From positions 248,001-312,000 of the forward strand of contig NZ_SZVP01000003.1 in assembly GCF_005885605.1 (NCBI RefSeq): a stretch of DNA of 64,000 nt, given 5' to 3'. Below the pieces are notes generated by a model. The model searched no databases. It had not been told where the DNA came from and was given only the letters and a program-made list of their open reading frames with translations. Of the stretch, positions 35,969 to 53,389 are shown in pieces (within the stretch, counting starts at the first letter, position 1; the number at the start of each line of letters is the position of its first letter). A program made the translations under genes and the position numbers. The stretch is from Colwellia ponticola. GTDB taxonomy: Bacteria > Pseudomonadota > Gammaproteobacteria > Enterobacterales > Alteromonadaceae.

Positions 35969-36304
35969 TGTCTGGAAATACTCTTTGAATAAGCCGGCGA
36001 CTTTTGATGATATATAAATTTAATTTTAATAACCACATCAATGCAGACTATATCCCCAAATCACATGCGAAATAGCAGCTGCACACTGCTAACTTTCCAT
36101 AACGTCATTATTTATCAGCTTACCTACCTCAAATGGTCGATGTTCAACCCCACTCAATAAGTGTTAATGAGCTTAAGGCAAAGTTTATACCTGTTCCACT
36201 TGCGAAGGAAACATTGAGCTAGAACGGGTATGTTCCGCCATTATTGCCTACCAACCTATTAATCATGTGAGTGCCGATGCACTTCTAACAAGTAAGGAAT
36301 AATC
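35969..36304. other. Divergent region before the catabolic cluster
   Basis: This 336-base gap lies between the pentapeptide gene and the thiolase. An imperfect inverted repeat, TGTTCC then GGAAACA (about 36191-36212), with another TGTTCC near 36230, could be an operator for the cluster. No regulator gene is near. An AAGGAATAATC ribosome-binding site precedes the thiolase. Confidence 0.3.
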
Positions 36305-37510
36305 ATGCGTGAAGCAGTTATAGTATCTACCGCCAGAACCCCAATGGGGAAAGCCTTTCGTGGTGCCTTTAATGATACTGAAGCACCGGCACTATCAGGT
36401 CATGCGGTTGAGCAGGCCGTCAAGCGCGCGGGTATTGAAGGTGCAGAAGTTGATGATGTGATCATTGGTTGTGCTGCACAGCAAGGTACCCAAGGCTATA
36501 ACCTAGGTCGGTTAACGGCAACGGCTGCCGGACTTCCAAACTCAGTACCAGGCATGACGCTAGATCGTCAGTGTTCCTCTGGGTTAATGAGTATCGCTTT
36601 TGCCGCACAAAACATTATGCTTGGCTCAATGAATACCGTGGTTGCTGGTGGTGTTGAGTCAATCTCTATGGTGCAAAACAAGCACAAAAATACCTATCGC
36701 AATATTTCAAAAAAGGTGTTGTCAAAATCACAACATGCTTATATGCAAATGATTGAAACAGCAGAAGTGGTAGCAAAGCGCTATAACATTTCACGTTTAG
36801 CACAAGATGAATACAGCCTGCAATCCCAACAACGCATTGCTGCAGCGCAACGAGATGGCTTGTTCATTGACGAAATAGTCCCTATGGCCTCGACTAAATC
36901 AATATTTAATCGTGATACCAAAGAAGTAAGCTTTGAAGAGGTATTATTAGCTAAAGATGAAGGTAATCGCCCCTCAACAACACTGGAAAGTTTACAGGCG
37001 CTAGAGCCTGTTTGGAAAGATGGTCGTGTTGTTGAACAAGGCGAGTTCATTACGGCTGGTAATGCTAGCCAATTGTCTGATGGTGCCTCCGCTTGTGTGG
37101 TGATGGACTCACAATTAGCGGCGCAAAAAGGTTTATCGCCTATGGGGATATTTAGAGGCATGGCCGTTGCCGGTTGTGAGCCCGATGAAATGGGTATTGG
37201 TCCGGTTTACGCTATTCCTAAGCTATTAAAACAACATGGATTATCGATTGACGATATTGGTCTTTGGGAAATTAATGAAGCCTTTGCCTGTCAATTAATT
37301 TACTCGCGCGATTATTTAGCTATTGATAATAATAAGCTTAACGTCAATGGTGGCGCAATAGCTATTGGTCACCCCTTTGGTATGAGTGGTGCTCGTATGG
37401 TCGGTCATGCGCTTATTGAGGGTAAGCGTCGTGGTGTTAAATATGTGGTCGTCAGTATGTGTATTGGTGGAGGAATGGGCGCTGCAGGTTTATTTGAAGT
37501 TTGCCTGTAA
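36305..37510 (+). CDS. Acetyl-CoA C-acyltransferase (thiolase), steroid cluster
   Basis: This 401-residue thiolase would cleave a 3-ketoacyl-CoA with CoA in the final step of a beta-oxidation cycle. The catalytic residues are present: nucleophile Cys in [10 protein letters not shown] (about residue 90), His in NEAFACQ with [14 protein letters not shown], and the second Cys in [12 protein letters not shown]. Relatives in steroid catabolism (FadA5/FadA6 types) remove side-chain or ring-derived acetyl or propionyl units. It is followed after 82 bases by an SDR with its own AAGGA site; the two are probably co-transcribed. Base composition looks less AT-rich than in the flanking genes. Confidence 0.9.
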
Positions 37511-37592
37511 CGCACACCTATACTGACACTCATTACGGCAAACATAATAATAACTTGGATTATTTTAATCTAACTTACCTAAGGAATAACAA

Positions 37593-38399
37593 ATGCTTAA
37601 TATTTTAGATCGCTTTCGCTTAGATGGCCAAGTCGCCATAGTAACCGGCTCAGGTCGTGGTATTGGTGCTGCAACAGCTATCGCACTAGCCGATGCAGGT
37701 GCCGATGTCGTAGTTACCGCCAGAACTATCGAAGATATCGAACATACCGCAACACAAATACGCCAACGTGGTCGACGTGCATTAGCCGTTGCTTGTGATG
37801 TGCTTGATGAACAGCAACGACAAGCCTTGCTTGAACAAACTATTGAACACTTTGGCCGACTTGATATTTTAGTGAATAACGTCGGCGGCTCAGGTGCGAT
37901 AAAGCCAACACTAATGACCACAGAAGAGGAGTTAGAGGCTTGCTTTAAACTCAATACCAGCACTGCCTTTGCTATGTCTCGTCTTAGTGCGCCATTAATG
38001 GTAAAAACAACAGGGCAAGGAGCCATTGTTAATATTTCATCCGTTGCAGGACACCTAGCCCAACCTGGTTTTATTAGTTACGGTATTGGTAAAGCTGCAT
38101 TGAATTTTATGACGCTTAATTTAGCGCAAGATTTTGCCCCCAAGGTAAGGGTTAACGCTATTAGTGTAGGTTCAACATTGACTGATGCCTTAAAAGGCGT
38201 CATGAGTGATGAAATTGAACAAGCCATCGTTAAGCGTACGCCAATGGCACGATTAGGCCAACCTGAAGATATTGCTGCTTGTGCCTTATTCTTAGCATCA
38301 CCTGCGGCTAGCTATATTACTGGTGAGATATACGGTGTTAATGGCGGGCTAACTGACGCGCCAATGGTAATGCCACGCAGTAGTTTTAATACTGACTAA
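37593..38399 (+). CDS. SDR oxidoreductase resembling 7alpha-hydroxysteroid dehydrogenase
   Basis: This 268-residue short-chain dehydrogenase has the cofactor loop TGSGRGIG (about 19-26), NNVGG (about 95), catalytic Ser in VNISSVAG, and YGIGK giving Tyr and Lys. The C-terminal half closely tracks E. coli HdhA: TDALKGVMSDEIEQ, TPMARLGQPEDIAA and ALFLASPAASYI. That makes a hydroxysteroid or hydroxyacyl substrate credible, and the neighbourhood supports it. The arginine after the first strand (TARTIED) hints at NADP(H) or NAD(H) ambiguity. It might instead act on a hydroxyacyl-CoA formed during ring degradation. Confidence 0.85.
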   Translation: MLNILDRFRLDGQVAIVTGSGRGIGAATAIALADAGADVVVTARTIEDIEHTATQIRQRGRRALAVACDVLDEQQRQALLEQTIEHFGRLDILVNNVGGSGAIKPTLMTTEEELEACFKLNTSTAFAMSRLSAPLMVKTTGQGAIVNISSVAGHLAQPGFISYGIGKAALNFMTLNLAQDFAPKVRVNAISVGSTLTDALKGVMSDEIEQAIVKRTPMARLGQPEDIAACALFLASPAASYITGEIYGVNGGLTDAPMVMPRSSFNTD

Positions 38400-38403
38400 T
38401 TCA

Positions 38404-38437
38404 ATAGCGACTAACTTACTACAAGGAAGTCGCTTAT
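38404..38437 (+). terminator. Inverted repeat after the SDR gene
   Basis: The arms AGCGACT and AGTCGCT with flanking AAT/ATT lie a few bases past the SDR stop. It is a weak terminator candidate with TTATTT after it. Confidence 0.4.
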
Positions 38438-38561
38438 TTAGACAACGCCGGAGCACATTGTCTTGTACACATTGTCTTTTACAACGAGCTATTAAAATAA
38501 AGACCTTGTATTTTGCCTTTTTTCTCTACGTATAAAATAGACCACTTAATTAATGAAATTG

Positions 38562-38601
38562 CTAACAAGGCGTTTTTCACACAAGAACAACGCCTTGTTA
38601 G
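38562..38601. repeat. Perfect 13-bp inverted repeat resembling integron attC ends
   Basis: CTAACAAGGCGTT (38562-38574) and AACGCCTTGTTAG (38589-38601) are perfect reverse complements around a 14-base loop. No T-run follows on either strand, so it is not a standard terminator. The arm sequences look like the outer ends of marine integron attC sites, but the centre is far too short and the arms lack the unpaired base. Confidence 0.7.
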
Positions 38602-38684
38602 TGACTTGAAAATAGCAAAAAACATACGGATACGATAAGCGTACCAGAAGAAAATAATGACGTTAACCACAGAGGAAGATATTT

Positions 38685-38891
38685 ATGGCACACAAAACCG
38701 TTATTCAGTTAGCAAGTGTCTCTAATCAGCCGTATAAAAAACATAACACTGAGGTGTTAACTATCAATACGCTACTGGATAACTCATCTGCTCCTTTTAC
38801 GGGTCATATAGATGACACTATAGCTAAAAACACAACTAACCATTTTACTTATTCCTTAGTGCCCTACCCTGACATGTTACTGGTTTTATAA
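38685..38891 (+). CDS. Hypothetical 68-residue protein
   Basis: This small ORF of unknown function has GAGG eight bases before its ATG. The protein is polar, with Thr, Asn and His in excess, a possible short hydrophobic end (PDMLLVL), no cysteine and no domain I recognise. It stands alone in the gap between the SDR and the LeuB-like gene, just after the 13-bp inverted repeat, and is followed by a hairpin. It may be real or chance; the ribosome-binding site and the absence of any overlapping gene favour reality slightly. Confidence 0.35.
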   Translation: MAHKTVIQLASVSNQPYKKHNTEVLTINTLLDNSSAPFTGHIDDTIAKNTTNHFTYSLVPYPDMLLVL

Positions 38892-38913
38892 TCCTTTATT
38901 GGCACAGTAAGCA

Positions 38914-38953
38914 TAGTGAAGACTAAGGGCTTGCAACCCCTTAGCCTTCACTA
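38914..38953. terminator. Hairpin downstream of the LeuB-like gene
   Basis: Sixteen-base arms (38914-38929 and 38938-38953) pair with one mismatch around an 8-base loop, 17 bases past the LeuB-like stop. It likely ends the seven-gene minus-strand run. Confidence 0.6.
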
Positions 38954-38969
38954 CCCATCACAACTATTG

Positions 38970-40067
38970 TTATAAATTTTTTAATATTTCAACAACTTTA
39001 TCACCAAAGTCACTCGTCGTTAGTATGGTAAGTTCATCAGCTGAATGAGACAGTTCAGCGGTAGAATAGCCTTGCACAAAAACATTCTCCATTGCTTGCC
39101 AGATTTTTTTTGACTCTTCAATCATACCAAAACTGTATTCTAACATCATAGCCACAGAGCCAATCATTGAATAAGGGTTCGCTATATTTTTTCCGGCAAT
39201 ATCAGGAGCAGAGCCATGCGATGGTTCATAATAAGCAATATCATCACTTAAACAAGCAGAAGGCATTAACCCTAATGAGCCTAAAATACCACCTGCTTGA
39301 TCACTTAAAATATCACCGAACATATTTTCCATCACCATAACATCGAACATAGTCGGGTTTAAACAAAGGAAGGTAGCGGCAGAATCAACAAGTTGGTGTT
39401 TTACTTCTACTTCAGGAAATTCTATTGCAACTTCCGCTAGTACTTCATTCCAAAGTACGCTCGATTTCAACACATTGCTTTTATGAATATTATGCAAAAC
39501 TTTCTTGCGCTTCATCGCTATGTTAAAAGCAACTAAGAGTATTTGTTTAATTTGGTCTTCATCATATTCAAGGGTTTCTTTAACGTAACGCTTACCAGAT
39601 TTTGTTAAGCCGACTTCTTTATTACCAAAATATAAACCACCAACAAGCTCTCTAACCATAACAATATCAATGCCGTCTTTAATAATTTCAGCTTTTAAAG
39701 GGGAAAAGTTATTTAATGTTTTAGGCAAATAAACGGGGCGTATATTGGCATAAGTATTTAAAAATGTTCTTAAAGGTAAAATAGCGCCTCGTTCAGGTTG
39801 TTGATCTACTGGTATCTTTTGAGTCTCTTCATACCCTAAACCTACAGGCCCTTTTAAAATAGCATCCGCGGCAGCACAAATACGTTTGGTTGCTTGAGGA
39901 AACGAGTCGCCACACTTAAAATAAGCATTTGCTCCAAAATCTGCTTGGGTCAAAGTAAAGCGTACCTTTGATAGTGACTCTACGACGTTAAGCACTTTAA
40001 TCGCTTCTTTCATTATTTCTGGACCAATACCATCACCGGAAAGGATGGCAATATTATAATTTTTCAT
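38970..40067 (-). CDS. LeuB-like beta-decarboxylating dehydrogenase
   Basis: This 365-residue enzyme is of the isocitrate/isopropylmalate dehydrogenase family. It follows LeuB in QPERGAILPLRTF, NIRPVYL, MVRELVGGLYFG, KSNVLKSSVLWNEV, NMFGDILSDQAGGILGSLGLMPSA and HGSAPDIAGKNIANP. The catalytic Lys is kept, but the usual Asp before it (IDKANVL in E. coli) is His (IHKSNVL). No leuA, leuC or leuD is near; it is the last gene of a steroid-type run, after a 119-base gap. It could be a second leuB, or act on another 2-hydroxyacid with a 3-carboxylate. The gene looks more AT-rich than the cluster genes upstream of it. Confidence 0.78.
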   Translation of the reverse strand: MKNYNIAILSGDGIGPEIMKEAIKVLNVVESLSKVRFTLTQADFGANAYFKCGDSFPQATKRICAAADAILKGPVGLGYEETQKIPVDQQPERGAILPLRTFLNTYANIRPVYLPKTLNNFSPLKAEIIKDGIDIVMVRELVGGLYFGNKEVGLTKSGKRYVKETLEYDEDQIKQILLVAFNIAMKRKKVLHNIHKSNVLKSSVLWNEVLAEVAIEFPEVEVKHQLVDSAATFLCLNPTMFDVMVMENMFGDILSDQAGGILGSLGLMPSACLSDDIAYYEPSHGSAPDIAGKNIANPYSMIGSVAMMLEYSFGMIEESKKIWQAMENVFVQGYSTAELSHSADELTILTTSDFGDKVVEILKNL

Positions 40068-40186
40068 GCAAGAATAACCTTTATTTGTAATCGTTAAGTT
40101 TTTAATGACTGGGGCTAAAGAGTGGAATAAATATTCTTAACTAAAGACCGACATAAAAATCTAAAGTAAAGATGAGATAAAAGCCG

Positions 40187-41383
40187 CTAATTCATTTGAA
40201 TTTTGGGCTCTTTGGGCATGCCTAAACCACGTTCAGCAATAATGTTTCGCTGTATTTCATTAGTGCCACCGTAAATAGTGTCCGAGCGGACAAATAAATA
40301 CATCGCTTGTAAGCGCGTTAAATTATATGGCGCTGACGCTAAAATTTCAGCTTCTGGTCCCATAACATCCATGGCAAGTTCACCTAAATCTCGATGCCAA
40401 GTAGACCAGTACAACTTATAAATTAACGCTTCTTTTTTCAGGCCACCATCGCCCTCATCAGACAGCATACGCATGCTGTTATAGCGCATGATTTTCAAAC
40501 GAACATGTGCCTCGGCAATACGTTGGCGAATAATGGGGTCTTTATCGTTGCCATTAGCTTTAGCAATAGCGATCACTTGATTAAGTTCATTGTGAAACTG
40601 CATCTGCTGTCCCAACGTTGAAACGCCACGCTCAAAACCAAGCAATCCCATGGCAATCGCCCAACCTTCACCGGGTTTACCAACAATATCATCGGCGTCA
40701 CATTCAGCTTGGTCAAAAAAAACTTCATTAAATTCTGACGTGCCTGTTAACTGCTTAATACCTCGTACTTCAATGCCAGGCTGGTCCATTTTCATCAAGA
40801 AAAAGCCAAGACCTTTATGCGCAATCGAGTCAGGGTTTGTACGCGCAATGACAAAAATATAATCAGACTCATGAGCTAATGATGTCCAAACTTTTTGACC
40901 GCTAATAATCCATTTCCCTTTAGCTTCGTCAAAATATGCTTTAGTTTTAACATTCGCTAAATCAGATCCTGCACCAGGCTCAGAGTAACCTTGGCACCAC
41001 AATTCAGTACCGGCAACAATACCAGGTAAATATTTTTGTTTTTGTGCTTCGCTACCAAAGGCAATAAGCGTTGGTCCCGCTAGGCCTTCACCGATATGAC
41101 CCACATGTCCGGGTGCTCCAGCACGAGCGTACTCTTCGTTAAAAATAACCTGTTGTTCAATTGAACAGCCTCGACCACCATATTCTTTTGGCCAACCGAT
41201 ACAAGTCCAGCCGTCTTGAGCGAGTTTTTGTTCCCACTTTTTACGCGCTTGGGGAAACATATGCTCATCTCCGGGACCGCCGCGAAACTTAAGCTGCTCA
41301 AATTCACCGACTAAGTTTTGTGTTAGCCACTGCGCCACTTCAGCGCGAAATTTTTCGTCTTCGGGACTAAAACTTATTTTCAT
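40187..41383 (-). CDS. Acyl-CoA dehydrogenase, likely catalytic subunit of a heteromeric enzyme
   Basis: This 398-residue flavoprotein has the family blocks CQGYSEPGAGSDLAN and WIISGQKVWTSLAHESDY and the C-terminal GGTNEIQRNIIAERGLG. The usual medium-chain catalytic Glu of YEGT is Gly372 here (YGGT). A Glu at about 251 in LLGFERG occupies the alternative helix position used by isovaleryl- and long-chain-type enzymes. The preceding gene, 21 bases away, encodes a second acyl-CoA dehydrogenase lacking either Glu. Paired subunits like this form alpha2beta2 enzymes in steroid side-chain or ring degradation (the ChsE/FadE pattern). Its CoA substrate would be a steroid-derived acyl-CoA. Confidence 0.88.
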   Translation of the reverse strand: MKISFSPEDEKFRAEVAQWLTQNLVGEFEQLKFRGGPGDEHMFPQARKKWEQKLAQDGWTCIGWPKEYGGRGCSIEQQVIFNEEYARAGAPGHVGHIGEGLAGPTLIAFGSEAQKQKYLPGIVAGTELWCQGYSEPGAGSDLANVKTKAYFDEAKGKWIISGQKVWTSLAHESDYIFVIARTNPDSIAHKGLGFFLMKMDQPGIEVRGIKQLTGTSEFNEVFFDQAECDADDIVGKPGEGWAIAMGLLGFERGVSTLGQQMQFHNELNQVIAIAKANGNDKDPIIRQRIAEAHVRLKIMRYNSMRMLSDEGDGGLKKEALIYKLYWSTWHRDLGELAMDVMGPEAEILASAPYNLTRLQAMYLFVRSDTIYGGTNEIQRNIIAERGLGMPKEPKIQMN

Positions 41384-41404
41384 TGGTGCTACCCTATTAA
41401 CCGA

Positions 41405-42562
41405 TTAATCTAATAATATTTGTGCGATAAGTTCGCGATGATAGGCGCTATTGCCTAAAAATAGTTCAGAAGACTTGGCACGTTTGAAATACAGGTGAAC
41501 ATCGTACTCCCAAGTAAAACCAACGCCACCATGAAGCTGAATGGCATCACTGGCATTGCTAAAATATCCCTGTGAACAATACGATTTAGCAACACTGGCC
41601 GCTTCTGCTAGTTCATTAGCTAACGGACCGCCATTAAGGGCTTCTTCTGCGACACAAGCAGCATAATAAACCGCTGACTTGGCAACTTCAGCACGTAACA
41701 TCATGTCTGCCGCTTGGTGTTTAACTGCTTGAAAACCTGCAACAGGGCGACCAAACTGAACACGCTCTTGGGTATATTCGACCGTTAAATCTAGCGTCTG
41801 CTGAGCACCACCGGCTTGCTCTGCCGCAACGGCTACCGTAGCTAACTGAATAATTTTATTCAATTGAGGCCAAGCCTTACCTTGCTCACCCATTAAATCT
41901 GCTTTAGTAACACAGACCTGGTCTAAGGTAATTTCAGCTTGCTTACGGGTTTCATCCATGGTCGGTAACCAAGAGCGCTTTACGCCTGGCGTGTTCGCAT
42001 CAAGAGCAAATAAACTAATGCCATCGACGCCAGTACTCCCTTCGTCACGCACTGCAAAGATAATTAACCCTGCGCTATGGCCATCGGGTACATAGCGATA
42101 GCGACCATTAAGTAAATAGTGATCACCATCAGTGGTCACTGTTGCCTGTACTGCGTCAGCATCCCACCGTCCGTTGTTACCGGTATAAGCCAGTGTAGCG
42201 GTTAGGCTACCTTGACAAATTTGGCTTAAATATTGCTGTTTTTGCGCTGCTGTGCCTGCAACAATTAAGGCATTGGTCCCTAAACATACTGTCGAGAAAA
42301 ACGGCGAACATAACAAGTAGCGCCCCATTTCTTCAAGCATGATAACGAGCTCAACATAACCAAGCCCCATACCGCCATATTCTTCAGGTATATGAATGGC
42401 TTGCCAGTACATTTCAGTACAAATACGTTGCCAGATTTGTGTTTCAAACCCTTGTTCACTGGCCATAGCATTACGTATTGCGCTTGATGATGAAACGTCA
42501 GCTAAAAAGGCTTGCGCAGTATCGCGGATCATCTTCTGCTCTTGTGTAAATGAAAACTCCAA
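41405..42562 (-). CDS. Acyl-CoA dehydrogenase-like subunit without a visible catalytic base
   Basis: This 385-residue acyl-CoA dehydrogenase fold has N-terminal EEYGGMGLGYVELVIMLEEMG, the middle barrel and the C-terminal QLHGGVGFTWEYDVHLYFKRA. The end reads LFLGNSAYHRELIA, with no YEGT-like Glu. The helix that carries the alternative Glu in its partner reads IIQLATVAVAAEQ instead. It is therefore probably a non-catalytic partner in a heterotetramer with the next gene. The start is TTG, chosen because acyl-CoA dehydrogenases normally begin MEF/MDF and GGGG lies upstream. Spacing to the FadD3-like gene is 30 bases. Confidence 0.85.
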   Translation of the reverse strand: MEFSFTQEQKMIRDTAQAFLADVSSSSAIRNAMASEQGFETQIWQRICTEMYWQAIHIPEEYGGMGLGYVELVIMLEEMGRYLLCSPFFSTVCLGTNALIVAGTAAQKQQYLSQICQGSLTATLAYTGNNGRWDADAVQATVTTDGDHYLLNGRYRYVPDGHSAGLIIFAVRDEGSTGVDGISLFALDANTPGVKRSWLPTMDETRKQAEITLDQVCVTKADLMGEQGKAWPQLNKIIQLATVAVAAEQAGGAQQTLDLTVEYTQERVQFGRPVAGFQAVKHQAADMMLRAEVAKSAVYYAACVAEEALNGGPLANELAEAASVAKSYCSQGYFSNASDAIQLHGGVGFTWEYDVHLYFKRAKSSELFLGNSAYHRELIAQILLD

Positions 42563-42592
42563 AATCTTTGCCCCTTTTAGCCTAGCTCGTAT

Positions 42593-44197
42593 TTATGCAA
42601 CGGTTTTAGCCAACTCTGCTTTAACAATTTTGTTAGACGCATTGACTGGCATTGCCTTAATTATTTTCACTTTCTTAGGAACACGGTAATTAGCCATACG
42701 TTCTCGACACCAAGCAATAAGTGCTGGCTCATCAAGTGAATGCTCTGATTTTAAAGTGATAAAAGCACAGCCGACTTCTCCCATGCGCTCATCTTTTATG
42801 CCAAGAACGGCTGATTGCGCAATGGCTGGATGTTCTGTTAAAACAGCTTCAATTTCAGCTGGATAACAATTAAAACCGCCCGAGATATACATATCTTTTA
42901 ATCGATCGGTAATACTAAGATAGCCTTTATCATTTAGATGACCAACATCGCCAGTATGTAACCAGTTATCTGCATCAATAGCTTCAGCGGTGGCTGCTGG
43001 TTGTTCAAAGTAACCTTTCATAACATGGAAGCCACGAATACAAATTTCGCCGGTTTCACCTGCTGGCAATATTTCGCCTTGTGCTGACATAATAGCAATT
43101 TCGGTACCTTCAATAGCACGGCCGCTAGTTGAAGCAATCGTTTCATTATCGGTATCGGTATCGCAGATAGTCGCTAAGCCGCCACACTCAGTTAAGCCAT
43201 AAGCGGTTGTCACCACTTGAAAGCCTAGCTGATTACGCATACGTTCAATAAGTACGGGCGGAATTGTTGCAGCACCTGTAACGGCAACACGTAAGCTGGT
43301 TAAATCAGCGCTGTCAAGGCTTGGGTGTGCCAGTAATGATAAATACAACGTTGGCGGCCCAGGTAATACGGTAATTTTGTCTTTATTAATTCGGTCAAAG
43401 ACTTCATCGGCGTCAAATACCGCTTGCGGTAAAATAGTAGCGCCCGCTAACAAACAGCTAACCCAACCCGCTTTGTAGCCAAATGAGTGAAAAAACGGAT
43501 TAACCACCAAGTAACGATCGCCAGGAATAAGACCAATGGTTTTGACATAACCGCTAAAAGCTCGGATCATACCACCGTGGCGGCTCATAACACCTTTAGG
43601 CTTACCTGTAGTACCAGAGGTGAACATCAAATCAGCAAGATCGTCGCCGCCAATGCTGTTAGCAATGTCACGAGCACTGGCTTCGCTCACGCTTTCACTT
43701 TTTTGTAAAAATGTTTGCCAATCGCAACATGACTCGATATCGCCACCTTGTCGAGGTGTTAACGTCACGATAGATAGGGCTGTGGGTGTAAACAATTTAG
43801 CTAAATCGGCTGGGTAATCACTTTTAAGAAAATCGCCAACACTAAAAACAAGCTTTGCACCGCTGCGATTAATAATGTCAGCAGCCTCAACGGCTTTCAT
43901 TCGGGTATTAATAGGTACTAATACCGCCCCCGCCATTTGAAGACCAATAGCGGCAAGTACCCAAAGACCAGAATTAGCTCCCCAAATAGCGACCCTATCG
44001 CCGGGGCGAATACCAGAGGCAATCAAGGCTCGACACACGGCTAAGCTTCGATTGGGTAGCTCACGGTAACTTACCCTCAGCTCTGCATCTTCAATAGCAG
44101 TAAGATCGCCATAACGCTCTGCGCCAGCAAATACTAGCTTAGGAATACTGTCGATGATGGTATTATCGTTAGGTTGTAATATATTGCTCATGCTCAT
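42593..44197 (-). CDS. FadD3-like acyl-CoA ligase
   Basis: This 534-residue ATP-dependent CoA ligase has an intact phosphate loop MFTSGTTGKPKGVMSRHG, AYGLTECGGLATICDTD, the HTGDVGHL hinge region, LSITDRLKDMYISGGFNCYPAEIE, and the late lysine in NASNKIVKAEL. The closest named relatives by pattern are FadD3 enzymes, which activate the C/D-ring propanoate left after steroid ring A/B removal; this is inferred from similarity and neighbourhood. It starts 13 bases after the KstD-like stop and is followed by the acyl-CoA dehydrogenase pair. The two candidate ATGs (44197, 44191) share a weak ribosome-binding site. Confidence 0.83.
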   Translation of the reverse strand: MSMSNILQPNDNTIIDSIPKLVFAGAERYGDLTAIEDAELRVSYRELPNRSLAVCRALIASGIRPGDRVAIWGANSGLWVLAAIGLQMAGAVLVPINTRMKAVEAADIINRSGAKLVFSVGDFLKSDYPADLAKLFTPTALSIVTLTPRQGGDIESCCDWQTFLQKSESVSEASARDIANSIGGDDLADLMFTSGTTGKPKGVMSRHGGMIRAFSGYVKTIGLIPGDRYLVVNPFFHSFGYKAGWVSCLLAGATILPQAVFDADEVFDRINKDKITVLPGPPTLYLSLLAHPSLDSADLTSLRVAVTGAATIPPVLIERMRNQLGFQVVTTAYGLTECGGLATICDTDTDNETIASTSGRAIEGTEIAIMSAQGEILPAGETGEICIRGFHVMKGYFEQPAATAEAIDADNWLHTGDVGHLNDKGYLSITDRLKDMYISGGFNCYPAEIEAVLTEHPAIAQSAVLGIKDERMGEVGCAFITLKSEHSLDEPALIAWCRERMANYRVPKKVKIIKAMPVNASNKIVKAELAKTVA

Positions 44198-44210
44198 ATA
44201 AACTCTCTAT

Positions 44211-45932
44211 CTAATCCGTTGTTGCTGTTCGGTTTACAGTAATATGATTGGCAGCAATATAACCAAAAGTCATTGCGGGCCCTAGCGTTGCGCCTGCACC
44301 CGGATAGCTTGTTCCCATCACAGAAGATGAACAGTTACCAATGGCATAAAGTCCAGCAATGGGGTCACCAGAAGGACGTACTACTTGACCGAAGTCGTTA
44401 GTCAATAAGCCACCTTTAGTCCCTATATCACCTGGATGAATTTTCATCGCGTAAAATGGCCCTTTTTCAATCGGCGCTAAACAAGGGTTTGGTTTTACAC
44501 TTGCATCACCATAATAGCGGTCAAACACATTACCACCACGTTGAAAGTCTTCATCAACGCCTGTTTTTGCATAGCCATTCATGGTGGTTACCGTTTGAGC
44601 TAAACCTGCGGCATCAACATTGATCAGTTGTGCGAGTTCATCAAGAGTATCGGCCTTCCAATAAACTGAATCTCGCCATGCTTTCGGCGCTCTGCTATCT
44701 GGCATGATTTTTCCTGGCATCAAAGGACCCATGGCGTATTCCTGACGAAAATGGCTGTCAAAAACCACCCATGATGGAATGGAATTACCGGCTTTTTGAT
44801 GATTACGGTACATGGCATCACCAAACTCTAAATAAGGGGCGGCTTCGTTAAAGAAACGTTTACCTAAGCCATCAACGACAATGGCACCAGGGAAAGCGCG
44901 CTCGGCAAATAACCCTCGAGCACTCTGTTCTTTAGGTACTTTTAAGGTTGGTGCCCACCAGCACCAATCGAGTAAATCGGTTGCCGCACCAATTTTTTGT
45001 CCTGCTTCGAGTCCTGCTCCGGTATTACCATCTTTTGGTGTTGCGCTCCACGCTTGCTCTGTTGGTTGTGGCAGATATTTTTCACGCAATTGTTGATTTT
45101 GTTCAAAACCACCGCTACCCATAATAACGCCATGACGAGCATTTAGTGTCAGCGTTTGACCATCGCGTATAACCTTAATGCCGGTCACTTTATCGCCGGT
45201 CATAACAAAGTCGGTAAACTCTGTACTGCGCCATAATGGAATATTACGATCGAGTAATGAATGTCTTAATGAGGCAACCAAACTGCCGCCTAAACCTGCA
45301 CGTCGGTCACGACGACCTTTTTTACGTTGTTTAAAATCAAGCTTATAACGTAACATTAAGCCGATAATCATCAGCATCCAACCACGCTCTTTAGCAACCG
45401 CTTTATGTGCCTGTCGAGCGGTCCACGCCATTTTTCCCATTAACAAGGTATTACCCGATGCCGGTTGCTGGTGCTCAATTTCATCCCCCAACCCTGTGGT
45501 ATCAAATAGTTCAGGATCCATGCTACGCCCAGCGGGTAAAGAGCCGTCAAGATGTTGATAATAATCAGGGTATTTTTCAGCCACCGCATACTTTACTCGG
45601 CTATTAGCTTGTAATTCTCGGATCATTTTGGGGGCGTTATCTAAATAAGCGCGGATCCGCGATTCATCGACACTACCAGCACTAGCCGCTTTGATATACG
45701 TCAATGCGCTTTCATAAGAGTCAGTGCCACCGAGGGCCTTAAATTCATCATTATTGGGTATCCAGATACCACCACCAGATATTGCTGACGTACCACCATA
45801 TTTATCGCTTTTTTCAACAACAAGCACTGAATTCCCCTGATCTGCTGCGAAAATAGCAGCTGTCATGGCGCCTGCTCCCGAACCCACGATAATGACATCG
45901 TATTGGTTTTCAGTATCATTGGTTGTGGTCAT
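44211..45932 (-). CDS. kstD: 3-ketosteroid delta1-dehydrogenase-like flavoprotein
   Basis: This roughly 573-residue FAD enzyme would insert the 1,2-double bond into ring A of 3-ketosteroids. The N-terminal dinucleotide fold reads VIIVGSGAGAMTAAIFAA, then VVEKSDKYGGTSAISGGGIWIPNN. The C-terminal SYPGAGATLGPAMTFGYIAA supplies the tyrosine (about 543) and glycine (about 547) that correspond to the Rhodococcus KstD Tyr487/Gly491 pair. I start at ATG 45932, with AAGGAG seven bases upstream, rather than the TTG at 45950. Related delta4-dehydrogenases (5alpha/5beta-reducing side) cannot be fully excluded. Confidence 0.86.
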   Translation of the reverse strand: MTTTNDTENQYDVIIVGSGAGAMTAAIFAADQGNSVLVVEKSDKYGGTSAISGGGIWIPNNDEFKALGGTDSYESALTYIKAASAGSVDESRIRAYLDNAPKMIRELQANSRVKYAVAEKYPDYYQHLDGSLPAGRSMDPELFDTTGLGDEIEHQQPASGNTLLMGKMAWTARQAHKAVAKERGWMLMIIGLMLRYKLDFKQRKKGRRDRRAGLGGSLVASLRHSLLDRNIPLWRSTEFTDFVMTGDKVTGIKVIRDGQTLTLNARHGVIMGSGGFEQNQQLREKYLPQPTEQAWSATPKDGNTGAGLEAGQKIGAATDLLDWCWWAPTLKVPKEQSARGLFAERAFPGAIVVDGLGKRFFNEAAPYLEFGDAMYRNHQKAGNSIPSWVVFDSHFRQEYAMGPLMPGKIMPDSRAPKAWRDSVYWKADTLDELAQLINVDAAGLAQTVTTMNGYAKTGVDEDFQRGGNVFDRYYGDASVKPNPCLAPIEKGPFYAMKIHPGDIGTKGGLLTNDFGQVVRPSGDPIAGLYAIGNCSSSVMGTSYPGAGATLGPAMTFGYIAANHITVNRTATTD

Positions 45933-46022
45933 CGATCTACTCCTTTTCAAAACGTTATGCGTGATTAACTCATTTAGTAACCTAGTTATTACTGTATTTA
46001 TTCATGTATACGGTAAGTTAAA

Positions 46023-47720
46023 TTAGGGATAAAATTCTTTTTTCAGTTTATTTCTTAATAACTTACCTGCAGGATTACGCGGGAGTTTTTCGTTAGTGAT
46101 ATGAATTTTTGTCGGTATTTTATATTTAGCCAGTCGCTGTGCTACGTGTGCTAACAAAACCTTTTCATCGACAGAATCATCTTTTAATAAACACACCACG
46201 GCAACAACGGCCTCGCCCGTTTCTTCGTCCGGAATACCAAAAACAGCGACTTCTCCCACTGCCGCTTGCTCAAGTAAGCAAGATTCAACTTCAGCCGACG
46301 TAATATTTTCACCGGCACGATTAATCACATCTTTAATACGATCAACAATATATAAAAAGCCTGCTTCATCAAGATAACCAAGATCGCCGGTGTGTAACCA
46401 ACCTGAACGTATTGCATCTCGCGTAGCACTGGTGTTACCGACATAACCATCCATAATACAAACACCACGCATACAAACCTCGCCGACACTATTGGCAGGC
46501 AAAGGCTGACCATCGCGTCCGCAAATTTTCACCTCCATAATGGGTGAAACAAGCCCTGAACTTTTAGGCGCATAGCGAAACACATCCCCTGACGCCGCTG
46601 CGCCTACGCCATTGCTTTCGGTCATACCAAAACCAGCACCGATCATTTGCTCAGGTAACTTTGATAATGCTTGGTCAATTAAAGTGGCAGGTAAACCGGC
46701 TCCGCCAAAACCAAGGCCACTAAAAGATTTCATGACCTCAGCGCTATGAAAACTAGGTTCACGCAACAATTGCATCACCATAGACGGCGCGCCATTAAAC
46801 TGTGTTACCTGCTCTTTTTTAATTAACTTAATCGCATCAACGGGATCCCATTTATGGGTAAAAATCAATCGGCGACCTCCCCGTAAAGCAGCCAGTAGCT
46901 GTGCATGTAAACCACTGACGTGAAATAATGGTACGGCGGTTAAAATCGTAGGGACAAGCGCTTTTTCCATAATGCGAGCTAACGCATCAGGAGAAGTCAT
47001 TACGGATATTGCCCCAATAAAATCGATATTATAAAGTGCCTGACATACAGCGAGATGACTTGAAAAAACCGCTTTAGCGACACTGGTTGCGCCTGAAGTA
47101 AATAATACTAAGGCTGGGTCTGTGTCTTCTATTTGTGGTAGTTCAAGTGGTATTGCTTGATGATGTAATGCAACCGATAAATCAGTGACTGTTGGCTGGT
47201 TTACAAAACTGCTTGATGCGCTATCATTTAGCACTAAGGTCTCACTAGACCATGCCTCACTTTGATTAATTCGTTGCCACCTAGCGCTATCACAAATTAA
47301 TAACTTAGGTTTTATAGCGGTTAATGCTGACAATAACTCTTGCGCTAAGCCAAAACTATTAAGCGGCGCAGGCACAGCACCAATAAGCGCTGTCGCACAA
47401 AAAGCTACCACCCACTCAGGATTATTACGCATAGCTATTGCTACGTGTTCGCCTTTACCAATGCCTTTTTGATGCATATAGGTGGCTAAACTATCAACTT
47501 TTTTAAAAAATGTTTTGTAGCTCCAACGTTGCTGTTGATAAACCAAAAAATTTTGTTCATCTGTACGACGTGAATCATTAATGACCTGCGCTAAATTGAT
47601 TGGTGCATTACGATACACTGGCAATGTTTGGCCATTCACTTGCTTACTCTCAAGCTCAAATGGTGCACCAGGTGCCATCAATTGAGATTGAGCATCAGCA
47701 ACTAATTTAAGTAAGTTCAT
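46023..47720 (-). CDS. Class I adenylate-forming enzyme (acyl/steroid-CoA ligase) with altered P-loop
   Basis: This 565-residue AMP-forming ligase has FNGAPSMVMQLL, GFGMTESNGVGAA, HTGDLGYLDEAGFLYIVDRIKDV and the catalytic lysine in PAGKLLRNKL. The phosphate loop reads LFTSGATSVAKAV, departing from the usual TSGTTGxPKG at three positions including the Pro and Gly. It probably activates a steroid acid side chain, since it shares an operon with KstD. It overlaps the MBL hydrolase gene by four bases, so they are translationally coupled, and has a strong AGGAGG site. It resembles long-chain FadD proteins of steroid clusters more than enteric FadD. Confidence 0.83.
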   Translation of the reverse strand: MNLLKLVADAQSQLMAPGAPFELESKQVNGQTLPVYRNAPINLAQVINDSRRTDEQNFLVYQQQRWSYKTFFKKVDSLATYMHQKGIGKGEHVAIAMRNNPEWVVAFCATALIGAVPAPLNSFGLAQELLSALTAIKPKLLICDSARWQRINQSEAWSSETLVLNDSASSSFVNQPTVTDLSVALHHQAIPLELPQIEDTDPALVLFTSGATSVAKAVFSSHLAVCQALYNIDFIGAISVMTSPDALARIMEKALVPTILTAVPLFHVSGLHAQLLAALRGGRRLIFTHKWDPVDAIKLIKKEQVTQFNGAPSMVMQLLREPSFHSAEVMKSFSGLGFGGAGLPATLIDQALSKLPEQMIGAGFGMTESNGVGAAASGDVFRYAPKSSGLVSPIMEVKICGRDGQPLPANSVGEVCMRGVCIMDGYVGNTSATRDAIRSGWLHTGDLGYLDEAGFLYIVDRIKDVINRAGENITSAEVESCLLEQAAVGEVAVFGIPDEETGEAVVAVVCLLKDDSVDEKVLLAHVAQRLAKYKIPTKIHITNEKLPRNPAGKLLRNKLKKEFYP

Positions 47721-48868
47721 AGAGTACCTCCTGTCTTTTTTATTATAGGGGTGGGTAAATAGGTATTAATGCCTGAATCGTTCATAGACTGGCAAATTAA
47801 ATCACCGTTATCTTCAAGCCAATTAAGGTGTGCTAAGGTTTCACCCAAAGCCATCATACTTTCAATAGGCGCAAGTGAACGCGAACGTTTAAATAAATAT
47901 TTCATCGCCTGATAAGTATTGAATTCTTTCTGTTGCAAGGCAAAGGATTTTAACAGCGATAACTGTTCTACATGATGGTCAATTAATTGCTGCACGCGTA
48001 AATGCATTTGCCTAAATACGGGGCCATGAGCAGGTAGCACTAACGTATTTATATCAAGTGTTTGTAATTGCTCAAGAGAGCGTAACCAGTGCTTAAGTGG
48101 CTGACCTTGAGGTTCCATTTCATTAACTAAAATATTGGAGCTAATCGAGGGTAATAACTGATCGCCCGACAGCAATAGCTTATCTTCTTCACAATAAAGA
48201 CAAGCGTGCTCAGGTGAGTGTCCTTCACCAATAATAATCTGCCAACGACGCTGCCCTATCGTTAACACATCACCTCCTCGAAGCCGAGTAAATGATTCAG
48301 GACTATGTTTTATAAAAGGATCATTACGACAACTATCCATCATAGCGTCAACTTCACTACGTGGGGTACCGGTGCGATGATAAAAGGCTAATTGATGTTT
48401 ATTACCTAAGGTATCAACACTGCGACTAATCGTGTTGAGCATATAAAATTCACCATAAGTCATATATAACGGCACGTTAAATGTTTGCGTTAACCAGCTA
48501 GTAAGTCCGCTGTGATCATAGTGGAAATGAGTACAAATAATGCCCTTAATCATTTTTTTTTGGCAATGCTGCTCTATTACTTGGAGCCATAACTGACGTG
48601 TTTTTTCTGTGTTCAGGCCAGTATCGACAATGTACCAGCCATCAACATCTTTGAGTAAATAAACATTGATATGATCTAGCGCCATAGGCATAGGCATACG
48701 CAACCACAAAATACCATTAGCGATCTCCACCACAGAACCATTAGCCTGCGGTGGCGTCATGGGATATTCTAAAAGACCGTATTGTTGATGATTATCTCGC
48801 TCATCAGGTAACACCATAGCTTTCATTAGGTCTCCAAAAATAAATGTTTGGTTCATCGTTAATATCAT
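47717..48868 (-). CDS. MBL-fold metallo-hydrolase
   Basis: This protein of up to 383 residues has the metal motif CTHFHYDHSGLT (HxHxDH), a later His in GEGHSPEHACL, Asp in LLSGDQLL and His in LVLPAHGPVF, together giving a two-metal glyoxalase-II-like centre. Such enzymes in steroid and aromatic clusters hydrolyse thioesters, lactones or similar bonds; the substrate here is unknown. Two starts are plausible: ATG 48868 with GAGG five bases before it, or ATG 48826 (Met15) with GGAG seven bases before it. It is the first gene of the minus-strand run, divergent from the MFS gene. Confidence 0.82.
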   Translation of the reverse strand: MILTMNQTFIFGDLMKAMVLPDERDNHQQYGLLEYPMTPPQANGSVVEIANGILWLRMPMPMALDHINVYLLKDVDGWYIVDTGLNTEKTRQLWLQVIEQHCQKKMIKGIICTHFHYDHSGLTSWLTQTFNVPLYMTYGEFYMLNTISRSVDTLGNKHQLAFYHRTGTPRSEVDAMMDSCRNDPFIKHSPESFTRLRGGDVLTIGQRRWQIIIGEGHSPEHACLYCEEDKLLLSGDQLLPSISSNILVNEMEPQGQPLKHWLRSLEQLQTLDINTLVLPAHGPVFRQMHLRVQQLIDHHVEQLSLLKSFALQQKEFNTYQAMKYLFKRSRSLAPIESMMALGETLAHLNWLEDNGDLICQSMNDSGINTYLPTPIIKKTGGTL

Positions 48869-49009
48869 TATGCCTCAGGATATGCTTCAACATATGCTTG
48901 CACTAATAAGAAGCCATTTGAAGATAATGTAATACGTCCAAAAGGACGATGCCCTATTTTTCAGCAAAGTTAATGTAGATGAAAACTTGTTTAAAATAGA
49001 GAGCGGTAA
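48869..49009. promoter_or_regulatory. Divergent promoter region of the steroid cluster
   Basis: This 141-base interval separates the MBL-led operon from the MFS-KshA operon, so it must contain both promoters. It is a natural place for an operator; ACGTCCAAAAGGACG (about 48932-48946) is a near-palindrome with 6-base arms CGTCC/GGACG and is the best operator candidate. Confidence 0.45.
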
Positions 49010-50368
49010 ATGCAATCAGATAAAAGTCCACTAAGTGCAAACAGAACTCGACTGACGTTGTTATTACTATCTGTAATTTACGTTTTTTCGTTCATCGACC
49101 GTAACTTAATTGCTATTGTGCTCGAGCCAATCAAGCAAGAGTTTGATGTATCAGATACGGTAATGGGGGCGGTCAGCGGACTCGCTTTTGCTGTTTTATA
49201 TTCAGCGGTTAGCTTTCCACTCAGTCGTATGGCCGATCGAGGCACTAACCGCAGAAATATCATTGCGGTTTGTTGTGGCTTGTGGAGTTTAGCGACCATG
49301 GCTAGTGGTGTTGTTACTCAATTTTGGCAATTTACCCTCGCTCGTATGACGGTAGCTATCGGTGAGGCTGGCGGAACCTCTCCATCTGTTTCTATGGTGT
49401 CTGATTTATACCCTCCCGATAAGCGCTCATTCGCGATTAGCTTATATATGATAGGACCTCATGTCGGTTTATTAGCAGCAATGGCGCTAGGAGGCTGGAT
49501 AGCGCAAGAACATGGTTGGCGTGCAGTATTTATCTTTTTTGGTGCACCCGGTTTATTACTCGCATTACTGTTATATGTGTTAGGTAGAGACCCTGGTCTT
49601 GGCGTATACGATACCGAAGCAGAGCATAAAGCTCGTCAACTACCCCAAGGCAAGTTTTTTAGTGATGTGTTTACCATCATGCGCATCAAAGGTTTTTTTC
49701 TTATCTGCATGGGAACAGCCGTCGCTGGCATGGTCGGCTATGGTTACGGTATTTGGGCACCTACTTTTATGGTGCGAAATTTTGATATGCCACTTGCTCA
49801 AGCAGGTCTTACTTTTGGTCTTGCTAGTGGCATATTTGCCGCCGCGGGTTCAATGTTTAGCGGTTATTATTGTGACAAACTCAATACTACAGATAACCGC
49901 TGGCAATTACGTATGCCTGCTTTAGGTGTATTAATTAGTATGCCGTTTGGCTTCGCTTTTTTACTCTGGCCTGCCGATGCTTTTTGGCTCTTAGGTAGCA
50001 TAAAAATACCACACGCTATTATGTTTGCCGCCGGCTTTAGTTTTTTTAATAGTTGGTGGGCAACACTTGCCTACGCCGCTATTAGTCACTTAGTAAGTAG
50101 TAGCCAACGAGCAACGAGCATAGCGTTACTTAGCCTATTTCTAACCTTATTTGGCGCAGGCTTTGGTCCATTATTAACGGGCGCTTTAAGTGATGTATTT
50201 GCCTCTACCAACCCTGGCGAAGGTCTGCAATATGCCATCGTCGTCATGATCAGTTTATTACTACTATCTACTTGGTTTTATTACCGAGCAATATCACCTT
50301 ATCAGCAACAGATAATGGCTAAAACACTAAGTACACAACATCGTGAAGAAAATCTAATACGTCCATAA
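49010..50368 (+). CDS. MFS transporter of the spinster-like type
   Basis: This 452-residue inner-membrane transporter has twelve hydrophobic segments. The loop-2 motif FPLSRMADRGTNRRNIIAVC matches the MFS signature, and FIDRNLIAIVLEPIKQEF in TM1 and GEAGGTSPSVSMVSDLYPPDKR are typical of spinster/NarK-like bacterial members found beside catabolic genes. It probably imports the steroid or bile acid degraded by the cluster; direction and substrate are inferred from context only. It ends 22 bases before the KshA-like ATG and is likely co-transcribed with it. Confidence 0.85.
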   Translation: MQSDKSPLSANRTRLTLLLLSVIYVFSFIDRNLIAIVLEPIKQEFDVSDTVMGAVSGLAFAVLYSAVSFPLSRMADRGTNRRNIIAVCCGLWSLATMASGVVTQFWQFTLARMTVAIGEAGGTSPSVSMVSDLYPPDKRSFAISLYMIGPHVGLLAAMALGGWIAQEHGWRAVFIFFGAPGLLLALLLYVLGRDPGLGVYDTEAEHKARQLPQGKFFSDVFTIMRIKGFFLICMGTAVAGMVGYGYGIWAPTFMVRNFDMPLAQAGLTFGLASGIFAAAGSMFSGYYCDKLNTTDNRWQLRMPALGVLISMPFGFAFLLWPADAFWLLGSIKIPHAIMFAAGFSFFNSWWATLAYAAISHLVSSSQRATSIALLSLFLTLFGAGFGPLLTGALSDVFASTNPGEGLQYAIVVMISLLLLSTWFYYRAISPYQQQIMAKTLSTQHREENLIRP

Positions 50369-50390
50369 CTAAATAGAAGGAGTGCATCAT

Positions 50391-51491
50391 ATGGCCACTA
50401 CACAAGACTATCGCCTTGGCGATCATACGTTTCCAAGAGGTTGGTTCATGATAGCTACGGCTGAAGAAATCAACACTCACAAGCCTGTAGCAGTACGTTT
50501 TTTTGGTCGCGATTTTGCATTATATCGTGGCAGAGCAACTGGTCGAGTAGTATTACTTGATGCTTATTGCCCTCATATGAAAACCCACTTAGCTGCCAAA
50601 AATGATACCTCTTACGTTATTATTGATGGCGGTGGTACTAACATTGAAGGTGATAGTATTCGCTGCCCTTATCATGCGTGGCGCTTTGGTCCGGATGGCC
50701 AATGTGATGATATTCCTTATCATGAAGGACCGATACCCAAATCAGCCTGCATTAAAGCATGGCCTGTCGCTGAAAGTATGGGCGCAATATGGATATGGCA
50801 TGATCCTGAAAATGGTGAGCCAGAGTGGGACCACCCAAGTTTGCCGCAATGGGATGATGAGTCTTGGGTACAATGGCGTTTTGATGATTTAGGTATTCTT
50901 GAACAACATCCACAAGAAGTTATTGATAACATTTGTGATTATGGCCACTTAAGTCCAATACATGGCTCTACCGTGGAGCGCTATGAAAATGAATTTAGTG
51001 GTCATTACGCCATACAGCGTCAATGTGGTCCTCATCGCACCTTAGTTGGTGACGATGGTGTTAGCCCTGTGCTACATACCATTACTAAGTATCACGGTCC
51101 TGGTGTATTGATTTCTCACCTAACGGGCTATTATGAATCATATTTGATGATTACTCATACGCCAGTAGAAGATGGCTCGGTACGTGTTTGGCACGCCTTA
51201 TTGGTTAAGTCACCTGGTGGTAACGCGGTAGCAACAGTAGAAGATGGTGTTGCGGCACGTCAATTTCAGGATGCAAGTAAATTTGCTTTCATGCAAGACT
51301 TCCAGGTTTGGACTAATAAAGCCCCTTGCCTTAATGGTTTATTTATACCTAGCGACGGTCCGTTTATGAAAGCGAGAATTTGGTATAAACAATTCTTTAA
51401 CCCTAGAGAGCGTAAAGATGAGTTTTTAAGTAAAGTGGAAGGAGTTTATGTACCTAAAGGTATTCCACCATACACAGAGCAAGATCAATGA
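50391..51491 (+). CDS. kshA: Rieske oxygenase resembling 3-ketosteroid 9alpha-monooxygenase KshA
   Basis: This 366-residue terminal oxygenase would, with KstD, hydroxylate C9 and trigger ring-B opening. The Rieske cluster ligands are Cys60 and His62 (YCPHM) and Cys92 and His95 (CPYHAW). The mononuclear iron site is His186 and His191 (YGHLSPIHG) with Asp303 in MQDFQVWTNK, the same spacing as in mycobacterial KshA. The C-terminal RIWYKQFFNP also matches. ATG 50391 with AAGGAG eight bases before is preferred over the GTG at 50382. No KshB-type reductase is adjacent, so electrons must come from elsewhere in the genome. Confidence 0.87.
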   Translation: MATTQDYRLGDHTFPRGWFMIATAEEINTHKPVAVRFFGRDFALYRGRATGRVVLLDAYCPHMKTHLAAKNDTSYVIIDGGGTNIEGDSIRCPYHAWRFGPDGQCDDIPYHEGPIPKSACIKAWPVAESMGAIWIWHDPENGEPEWDHPSLPQWDDESWVQWRFDDLGILEQHPQEVIDNICDYGHLSPIHGSTVERYENEFSGHYAIQRQCGPHRTLVGDDGVSPVLHTITKYHGPGVLISHLTGYYESYLMITHTPVEDGSVRVWHALLVKSPGGNAVATVEDGVAARQFQDASKFAFMQDFQVWTNKAPCLNGLFIPSDGPFMKARIWYKQFFNPRERKDEFLSKVEGVYVPKGIPPYTEQDQ

Positions 51492-53055: not shown

Positions 53056-53084
53056 AAAGAAATAGGCCTCTGTATTACCTAATA

Positions 53085-53304: not shown

Positions 53305-53389
53305 TGGTGCGGATGGGGGGACTTGAACCCCCACGACCTAAGTCACCAGCCCCTCAAGCTGGCGCGTCTACCAATTCCGCCACATCCGC
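53305..53389 (-). tRNA. tRNA-Leu (anticodon GAG)
   Basis: This 85-base tRNA includes an encoded CCA end. The acceptor stem GCGGATG pairs with CATCCGC. The D-arm has TGGTAGACGC, the anticodon loop CTTGAGG holds GAG at 53353-53355, the long variable arm is typical of leucine tRNAs, and the T-arm has GGTTCAAGTCC. It sits directly downstream of secG, as in many gammaproteobacteria. Confidence 0.96.

Follow-up and report, generated by a model that had tools for sequence, protein, structure and literature searches.

Positions 36305-51491 of the stretch analysed here (64,000 nucleotides of Colwellia ponticola, probably a marine bacterium; positions 248001-312000 of contig NZ_SZVP01000003.1, or C166, of a 3.72-Mb assembly in 238 contigs; hereafter the window) hold a non-overlapping set of 11 genes that include homologues of the steroid enzymes KstD and KshA. 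We are highly confident from their gene content that this island and a second region, on contig C109, jointly encode the aerobic 9,10-seco pathway of bile-acid degradation known from Proteobacteria. The cluster is partial only locally, and what seemed a fragment becomes a nearly complete, testable pathway.

Gene content of the two regions

The evidence includes a gene-by-gene comparison with Comamonas testosteroni NFYY023, for which 140 kb around KshA and TesB served as the reference, partners were located by tblastn and genes were called by guanine-plus-cytosine (GC) position scoring together with tblastn. The list of 49 genes comprised all 46 C. testosteroni entries in Table 1 of PMC8399759 (ORF25 and ORF26 counted separately) plus a major facilitator superfamily (MFS) transporter, a short-chain dehydrogenase/reductase (SDR) and a metallo-beta-lactamase (MBL)-fold hydrolase. 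Reciprocal best hits were found in the window and C109 for 48 of the 49, ten of them in the window, and all 48 orthologues stand in open frames. In this test the C. testosteroni SDR segment extended beyond its stop, and ORF25 and ORF26 both scored as reciprocal with one single amidase. The set includes orthologues, by gene order and product, of CtCNB1_1308, 1309, 1310, ORF6, ORF7, 1347 and 1348, which are described as cholate-only genes (PMC4810484).

The remainder of the pathway, found through a search for extradiol dioxygenases, lies in three blocks at 206.9-277.8 kb of C109. These carry HsaA-D homologues, a KshB candidate, TesE-F-G, genes for the degradation of 3aα-H-4α(3'-propanoate)-7aβ-methylhexahydro-1,5-indanedione (HIP), the genes of the two side-chain cycles, aldolases included, Sad, an Old Yellow Enzyme (OYE)-type homologue of the 5beta-Delta4-3-ketosteroid dehydrogenase (5beta-KSTD) and homologues of the 12-hydroxyl genes SteA, SteB, Hsh1 and Sor1. 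We write 'TesE-F-G' since the TesF and TesG names and functions in Table 1 of PMC8399759 do not fit the gene order here. The HsaA, HsaC and HsaD models are the top NCBIfam match for the respective proteins, while the HsaB-like and acetaldehyde dehydrogenase genes were located through whole-genome family searches. The KshB candidate (C109:211855-212940, 361 aa) follows HsaA, has FAD-, NAD- and Fer2 domains and is a 50% reciprocal best hit to ORF17. The orthologues of Sal1, Sal2 and Sad begin at C109:238536 (64%), 223063 (80%) and 276329 (54%), all reciprocal, as is the 5beta-KSTD homologue at C109:231691 (52%). Thus KstD, KshA/KshB, TesA-D and HIP orthologues, recognized by reciprocal best hits and domains, all occur in one genome.

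A first-pass annotation of the window had proposed that the organism degrades a steroid, perhaps a bile acid, a view well supported by this gene content. Its statement that the window lacks KshB, HsaA-D and a regulator holds for 36305-51491, and candidates or homologues of the KshB, HsaA-D/Tes and HIP genes have now been found elsewhere in the genome, on C109. Of its two explanations, a pathway split over the genome or a novel partial route, the former therefore stood and the latter did not, the missing steps lying on C109. Its argument for a bile acid relied on an HdhA-like SDR, and we dropped it as weak, the protein falling below the HdhA cut-offs (NF049979, 198 versus 350 bits; PRK06113, 242.8 versus 367) despite having 7alpha-hydroxysteroid dehydrogenases as its nearest solved relatives; it passes PRK07814 (378 versus 346) and PRK07231 (238.7 versus 215). 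We instead favour a bile acid because of the two side-chain cycles, Sad, the 5beta-KSTD homologue and the homologues of SteA, SteB, Hsh1 and Sor1.

From the presence, order and orthology of these genes, which we observed directly, we infer the reactions, the substrate and growth on it as follows. The amidase may release conjugated bile acids, and ring A would be oxidized by a 3alpha-hydroxysteroid dehydrogenase, the OYE-type enzyme and the KstD of the window. The StdA1-type ligase (window), Scd1AB, Shy1 and the aldolase Sal1 would then take off acetyl-CoA and leave an aldehyde for oxidation by Sad, after which StdA2, Scd2AB, Shy2 and Sal2 would remove propionyl-CoA. KshA (window) with KshB (C109) is predicted to hydroxylate C9, leading to opening of ring B; ring A would be opened and removed by TesA1A2, TesB and TesD, and the fragment released from it processed by TesE-F-G. 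For rings C and D, the window would contribute the ScdA ligase, ScdC1C2 and the ORF33 thiolase, and C109 would add ScdD, E, G, K, Y, N, L1L2, F and ORF21/22, while the 12-hydroxyl would be handled by the SteA, SteB, Hsh1 and Sor1 homologues. The recently named scdB and scdH adjoin the propionyl side-chain block (PMC13101464), and C109:219629 and 218651, which stand beside that block and have 62% matches, may correspond to them. A TonB-dependent receptor that could provide an outer-membrane uptake route is encoded at the edge of the C109 region (C109:206906-209281); Glaciecola has a 60% relative. A Fic-domain gene (C109:216922-218268) breaks up the region.

Within 36305-51491, the thiolase and SDR genes on the plus strand are followed by a minus-strand run from a LeuB-like gene to the MBL hydrolase and by the MFS transporter and KshA, again on the plus strand (Table 1). 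The nine protein types, or ten genes, of the first-pass annotation were all recovered as long open reading frames; an eleventh, the LeuB-like gene, had been passed over.

Table 1. Predicted products, positions and supporting matches of the genes at window positions 36305-51491 and of the adjoining tRNA gene.
Predicted product	Position in window	Strand	Basis
Thiolase, orthologue of C. testosteroni ORF33 (HIP thiolase)	36305..37510	+	70% reciprocal best hit to NFYY023; Thiolase_N/C; name from gene order compared with Table 1 of PMC8399759
SDR, orthologue of the SDR adjoining Sad (CtCNB1_1310 by gene order)	37593..38399	+	47% reciprocal best hit; PRK07814 above cut-off
LeuB-like isocitrate/isopropylmalate dehydrogenase	38970..40067	-	TIGR00169 above cut-off
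Acyl-CoA dehydrogenase, ScdC2 orthologue (HIP side chain)	40187..41383	-	55% reciprocal best hit
Acyl-CoA dehydrogenase, ScdC1 orthologue; possible alternative start ATG 42532	41405..42562	-	38% reciprocal best hit
FadD3/ScdA-type HIP-CoA ligase	42593..44197	-	NF005801 above cut-off; 52% reciprocal best hit to ScdA
KstD, 3-ketosteroid Delta1-dehydrogenase, AcmB/TesH type	44211..45950	-	7p18, E 1.8e-216; 49% reciprocal best hit to TesH
Steroid CoA ligase, StdA1 type (C5 side chain)	46023..47720	-	53% reciprocal best hit to the C. testosteroni ligase in the StdA1 position
MBL-fold metallo-hydrolase	47717..48868	-	47% reciprocal best hit; HxHxDH motif
MFS transporter, CtCNB1_1308 orthologue by gene order	49010..50368	+	49% reciprocal best hit; PF07690
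KshA, Rieske oxygenase of 3-ketosteroid 9alpha-hydroxylase	50382..51491	+	PF19298; 64% reciprocal best hit to C. testosteroni KshA
tRNA-Leu(GAG) adjoining the island	53305..53389	-	Neighbourhood comparison with congeners

Family placing of the window enzymes

KshA matched PF19298 (KshA_C) at 195.6 bits (cut-off 23.3; E 1.3e-57) and PF00355 at 59.9 bits (cut-off 20.3), and aligns with the solved KshA structures 4qdc and 2zyl. Its Rieske CxH/CxxH motif starts at residue 63 and a D-x2-H-x4-H motif at residue 186, with Asp306 lying within QDFQVW, as would suit a 2-His-1-carboxylate iron site. The gene probably starts at ATG 50391 instead of GTG 50382, because the alignments with most relatives begin only at residue 3 or 4 of the longer translation. 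It encodes the sole KshA_C protein of the genome, where one further Rieske match lies on contig C1. Ten of the 12 other genomes searched also have one KshA_C match each, and a second, weak one was seen in C. testosteroni (25.9 bits) and in one further genome, G115 (20.9 bits).

A KshA tree of 38 rows was built, with 28 of 80 relative loci taken in and four short Rieske rows excluded. In it, 34 rows, among them C. testosteroni KshA, two Rhodococcus proteins, a Novosphingobium protein and a Planktothrix Rieske protein, split from four other Rieske rows at 93/90, a value below the tool's mark for firm support, with the bootstrap unsettled and several very long branches. The nearest rows by path were Thalassotalea, Aliiglaciecola, Glaciecola and Shewanella, and no well supported small set among the 38 rows contains the window KshA. 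The first-pass annotation had held that KshA or KstD falling with non-steroid enzymes would speak against steroid degradation. KshA did not group with the four other Rieske rows in this tree, nor did KstD fall with non-steroid enzymes by its best hits (7p18 and TesH).

The best solved relative of KstD, 7p18, is a 3-oxosteroid 1-dehydrogenase, which we take to be AcmB of Sterolibacterium, and aligns over residues 14-573. KstD has an FAD motif at residue 23, and stretches that contain tyrosines lie at 129, 371 and 497; these and the KshA motifs are presumed catalytic or cofactor-binding sites. The ligase at 42593 passed NF005801 of the FadD3 family (674.7 bits, cut-off 657). In the thiolase, Cys90 as well as the His and second Cys motifs were located, and the MBL hydrolase has an HFHYDH motif at residue 114.

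Weighing bile acids against other readings

Several observations weigh against the bile-acid pathway as proposed here. KstD stayed under the curated NCBIfam cut-offs (NF009478, 569.7 versus 789; NF005882, 559.8 versus 788; NF009479, 417.6 versus 793), and so did the C109 proteins under their equivalog cut-offs (HsaA, 367.1 versus 450; HsaC, 284.7 versus 450; HsaD, 183.1 versus 400), a biphenyl hydrolase model trailing that of HsaD by just 0.9 bits. The acyl-CoA dehydrogenase at 40187 has Tcur3483 and 4x28 as its nearest solved structures, which presumably act on steroid C17 side chains and are not HIP enzymes, and the ScdC1 orthologue is only 38% identical to C. testosteroni ScdC1. The names of genes in strains CNB-2 and TA441 were transferred to those of NFYY023 on the basis of gene order and product rather than accession, and the search for reciprocal best hits was confined to the window and C109:181-300 kb. 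The sole miss of the 49 genes is TesI, the 5alpha-Delta4 dehydrogenase. Finally, three OYE homologues of 5beta-KSTD, from P. stutzeri and Sphingobium, are reported as inactive in vitro, CasH being active (PMC8044976), and the C. testosteroni block with the 5beta-KSTD homologue (CtCNB1_1320), plus the ORF25/ORF26 amidases, was rated as not pathway-associated (PMC4810484). These last two reports make the 5beta and amidase steps the weakest of the proposed pathway, less certain than the others.

The reading that competes best, although we consider it improbable, is that the target is a C19 or other steroid without a carboxylic side chain, such as testosterone or androstanes, and that bile acids are incidental. 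KstD, KshA/B, HsaA-D and the HIP genes would suit any 3-ketosteroid, and Shewanella pealeana, which metabolized cholate, transformed testosterone as well (PMC4810484). Yet a testosterone-only degrader would have no need of StdA1, Scd1AB, Shy1, Sal1, Sad, StdA2, Scd2AB, Shy2 and Sal2, all of which are retained here, as are the likewise needless homologues of SteA/B, Hsh1, Sor1 and 5beta-KSTD.

Slightly less probable still, and compatible with bile-acid degradation as a variant of it, is a decayed pathway that accomplishes only partial steroid transformation. Here the LeuB-like gene matters. In one Glaciecola genome (G142) and one Aliiglaciecola genome (G147), a flavoprotein of 571-572 aa, a TesI reciprocal best hit at 42-45% identity, lies between the SDR and the first acyl-CoA dehydrogenase, a position occupied in the present genome by the LeuB-like gene. 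The latter passes TIGR00169 (360.8 bits, cut-off 353.2), has a GC content of 36.3% amid surroundings of 43.5-44.5%, shares at most 43% identity with the LeuB-type proteins of its own genome and five others (41% with that at C1:163396 of its own), and, as far as can be told, stands outside the pathway. No TesI orthologue was found in the genome, where the best match was KstD at 27%, nor was there a convincing TesI remnant in window 36001-42000 (best tblastn E 0.061). This loss, together with the differing GC of the gene in its place, the split of the locus and the low-GC DNA separating the C109 blocks, would fit decay. Against it, the other 48 orthologues are in open frames, and 5beta bile acids are described as needing no 5alpha dehydrogenase (PMC8399759). 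A genome that has kept the predicted 5beta route and misses the 5alpha dehydrogenase offers a smaller testable point in its own right.

Least of all do we expect a non-steroid polycyclic or alicyclic target, such as a diterpenoid or naphthenic acid, for which KshA and KstD homologues would have another role: KstD and the acyl-CoA dehydrogenases do match the alicyclic-acid models ChcC1/ChcC2 and PimC, below cut-off, and several KshA-bearing relatives, e.g. Polynucleobacter, are presumably not classical steroid degraders, but KshA groups with its C. testosteroni counterpart apart from four other Rieske oxygenases (at the 93/90 given above), and the match to the C. testosteroni steroid cluster runs gene by gene. 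A non-steroid role of KshA, suggested by its relatives in Aromatoleum, Thauera, Polynucleobacter and others and by the many loci in which KstD was not seen (both described below), was dropped on the grounds of that match and because all 13 genomes have one KshA_C match or at most a weak second one. Degradation of bile acids by the two regions together is the reading we retain below.

Proposed acquisition, distribution and comparison with known systems

C166 measures 336,799 bases and C109 413,255; the window island stops ~37 kb short of the closer C166 end, and at least 135 kb separate the C109 blocks from either end of their contig. The two regions are thus at least ~172 kb apart if they are on one replicon. 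The island has a GC content of 43.5-44.5% and its flanks 37.7-38.7%; the C109 blocks have 41.9-42.9% and their spacers, of ~3 and 13 kb, 37.5-39.6%. KshA was found in one of 39 genomes of the genus, that of the window itself, while two others had weak, partial Rieske matches (29 and 23 bits). Among 147 genomes of the family, 16 gave a match, four of them (including the window genome) strong and full-length at 77-100% identity. Next to the island, secG-tRNA-Leu(GAG) was kept in all four congeners examined (five searched), and over the ~20 kb beyond it only secG was common to any two of the five genomes, the window included, at a threshold of 40% identity over 60% of the length. We read both regions as horizontally acquired, one of them into a variable tRNA-Leu site, because of the presence in one of 39 genus genomes, the raised GC and this variable neighbourhood. 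The variable site corresponds to window 51803-53490. Between KshA and the tRNA lies a gene for an outer-membrane protein that had no match in the four congeners searched. Insertion at the tRNA by way of an att repeat was considered and rejected, none of 20 out of at least 60 repeat families in window 30000-54000 covering tRNA-Leu.

A KshA scan of genome contigs returned 119 relatives, the best 80 of which were retained along with up to 10 kb on either side, less in some loci. Among these 80, identity to the window KshA was 87-94% in Thalassotalea, Aliiglaciecola, Glaciecola and Shewanella corallii, 84-86% in Marinobacterium and Vibrio sinensis, 77-81% in Endozoicomonas and 64-81% in betaproteobacteria; relatives of 70-81% identity include Aromatoleum, Thauera and Polynucleobacter. 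KstD was present in the stretch in 17 of the 80 loci, all gammaproteobacterial by record title, and at 45% identity or more was not seen in the other 63 stretches. Endozoicomonas and Vibrio sinensis (loci L024, L027, L038 and L017) share the run ScdA-KstD-StdA1-MBL-MFS-KshA. KshA relatives of 71-74% occur in Polynucleobacter, Limnohabitans and Rhodoferax (L069, L045 and L049), which we take to be freshwater groups, and a 2.0-Mb Polynucleobacter genome has glyoxalase-family open reading frames of extradiol-dioxygenase size. Marine Glaciecola, Shewanella and Marinobacterium were earlier predicted to be degraders of this kind, and Shewanella pealeana, from one of these genera, metabolized both cholate and testosterone (PMC4810484), which favours the bile-acid reading. 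A cholesterol-degrading Colwellia isolate was obtained from a sponge (PMC5790920). Among the literature matches listed there was no Thalassotalea paper on bile-acid or steroid degradation. An unevenly distributed lineage thereby joins the predicted bile-acid degraders.

The genes also occur on plasmids. Three of these from Vibrio alfacsensis (NZ_CP140104.1, NZ_AP024168.1 and NZ_CP032095.1; two of the records state fish as the source, one gives none) carry KshA at 84%, HsaC at 71% and KstD at 66% identity. NZ_CP140104.1 (174,147 bases, from diseased turbot intestine), the sole plasmid examined in full, gave 44 of 49 reciprocal best hits, a count in which a MaoC gene annotated at 133988-134410 scored as a miss since the reading-frame filter had dropped it; its sister plasmids measure 176 and 221 kb. 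It has the FadD3-type ligase, KstD, second ligase, MBL, MFS and KshA genes in the same order as the window, yet differs from the present arrangement in being plasmid-borne and in that ScdC1, ScdC2, TesI and a CtCNB1_1310-type SDR were not found on it. The 186 marine Vibrio genomes surveyed in PMC4810484 are reported to lack such genes, and steroid degradation by Vibrio plasmids was undescribed in the titles and abstract beginnings of the literature matches listed. A plasmid from the fish gut suggests a way in which the trait might pass among sea bacteria that meet vertebrate bile.

Of 80 loci examined, 40 have both the MBL gene and the StdA1-type ligase, and in 35 of these the two are neighbours on the same strand; in C. 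testosteroni the MBL gene lies between StdA2 and Scd1A. We take the label SEDNCHOL to denote Sterolibacterium. A putative metallo-beta-lactamase appears in a SEDNCHOL steroid gene list (PMC6678751), and Table 1 of PMC8399759 has no entry for an MBL hydrolase. A conserved metallo-hydrolase without an assigned step is thus another of the smaller testable points to emerge from the comparison. Tentatively, and giving it somewhat less than an even chance, we suggest that the marine gammaproteobacterial bile-acid pathway may be a travelling module in which the MBL hydrolase beside the C24-CoA ligase performs an unassigned side-chain step, e.g. the hydrolysis of stalled steroid-CoA esters. That the module travels would be in line with the ~70 kb run in Glaciecola, the two regions here, the near-complete 174-kb Vibrio plasmid and its two sister plasmids.

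Among the closest known systems are the Glaciecola and Aliiglaciecola loci, which share the local gene order of the window, with KshA at 89-92% and KstD at 81-84% identity. Glaciecola G142, of the same family as the window genome, has all 49 genes as reciprocal best hits in one 100-kb stretch, window-type and C109-type genes forming a single run, and at least 39 of 49 are joined in Aliiglaciecola G147, a lower bound as 60 kb of its 85-kb contig were covered. In both, the window genes continue into the aromatic-ring and HIP genes, whereas the parts are split in the present genome. Split bile-acid clusters are described for Pseudoalteromonas haloplanktis, likewise a cold-marine gammaproteobacterium, and the aldolytic side-chain route of Pseudomonas stutzeri Chol1, compared by way of Table 1 of the same source, is represented here by orthologues of C. 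testosteroni Sal1, Sad and Sal2 (PMC8399759). With C. testosteroni (TA441 and CNB-2, with NFYY023 as the strain compared) C109 shares the order TesB-ScdL1-L2-N-K-Y-ORF21-22-ScdF. In contrast to the single cluster of ~115 kb in that species, the genes here occupy two regions, the StdA1 ligase and MBL genes adjoin KstD and KshA, TesI is missing and there is one amidase instead of two. The present genome therefore offers a good new example of a route described in Comamonas and predicted for related marine bacteria, rather than a new process.

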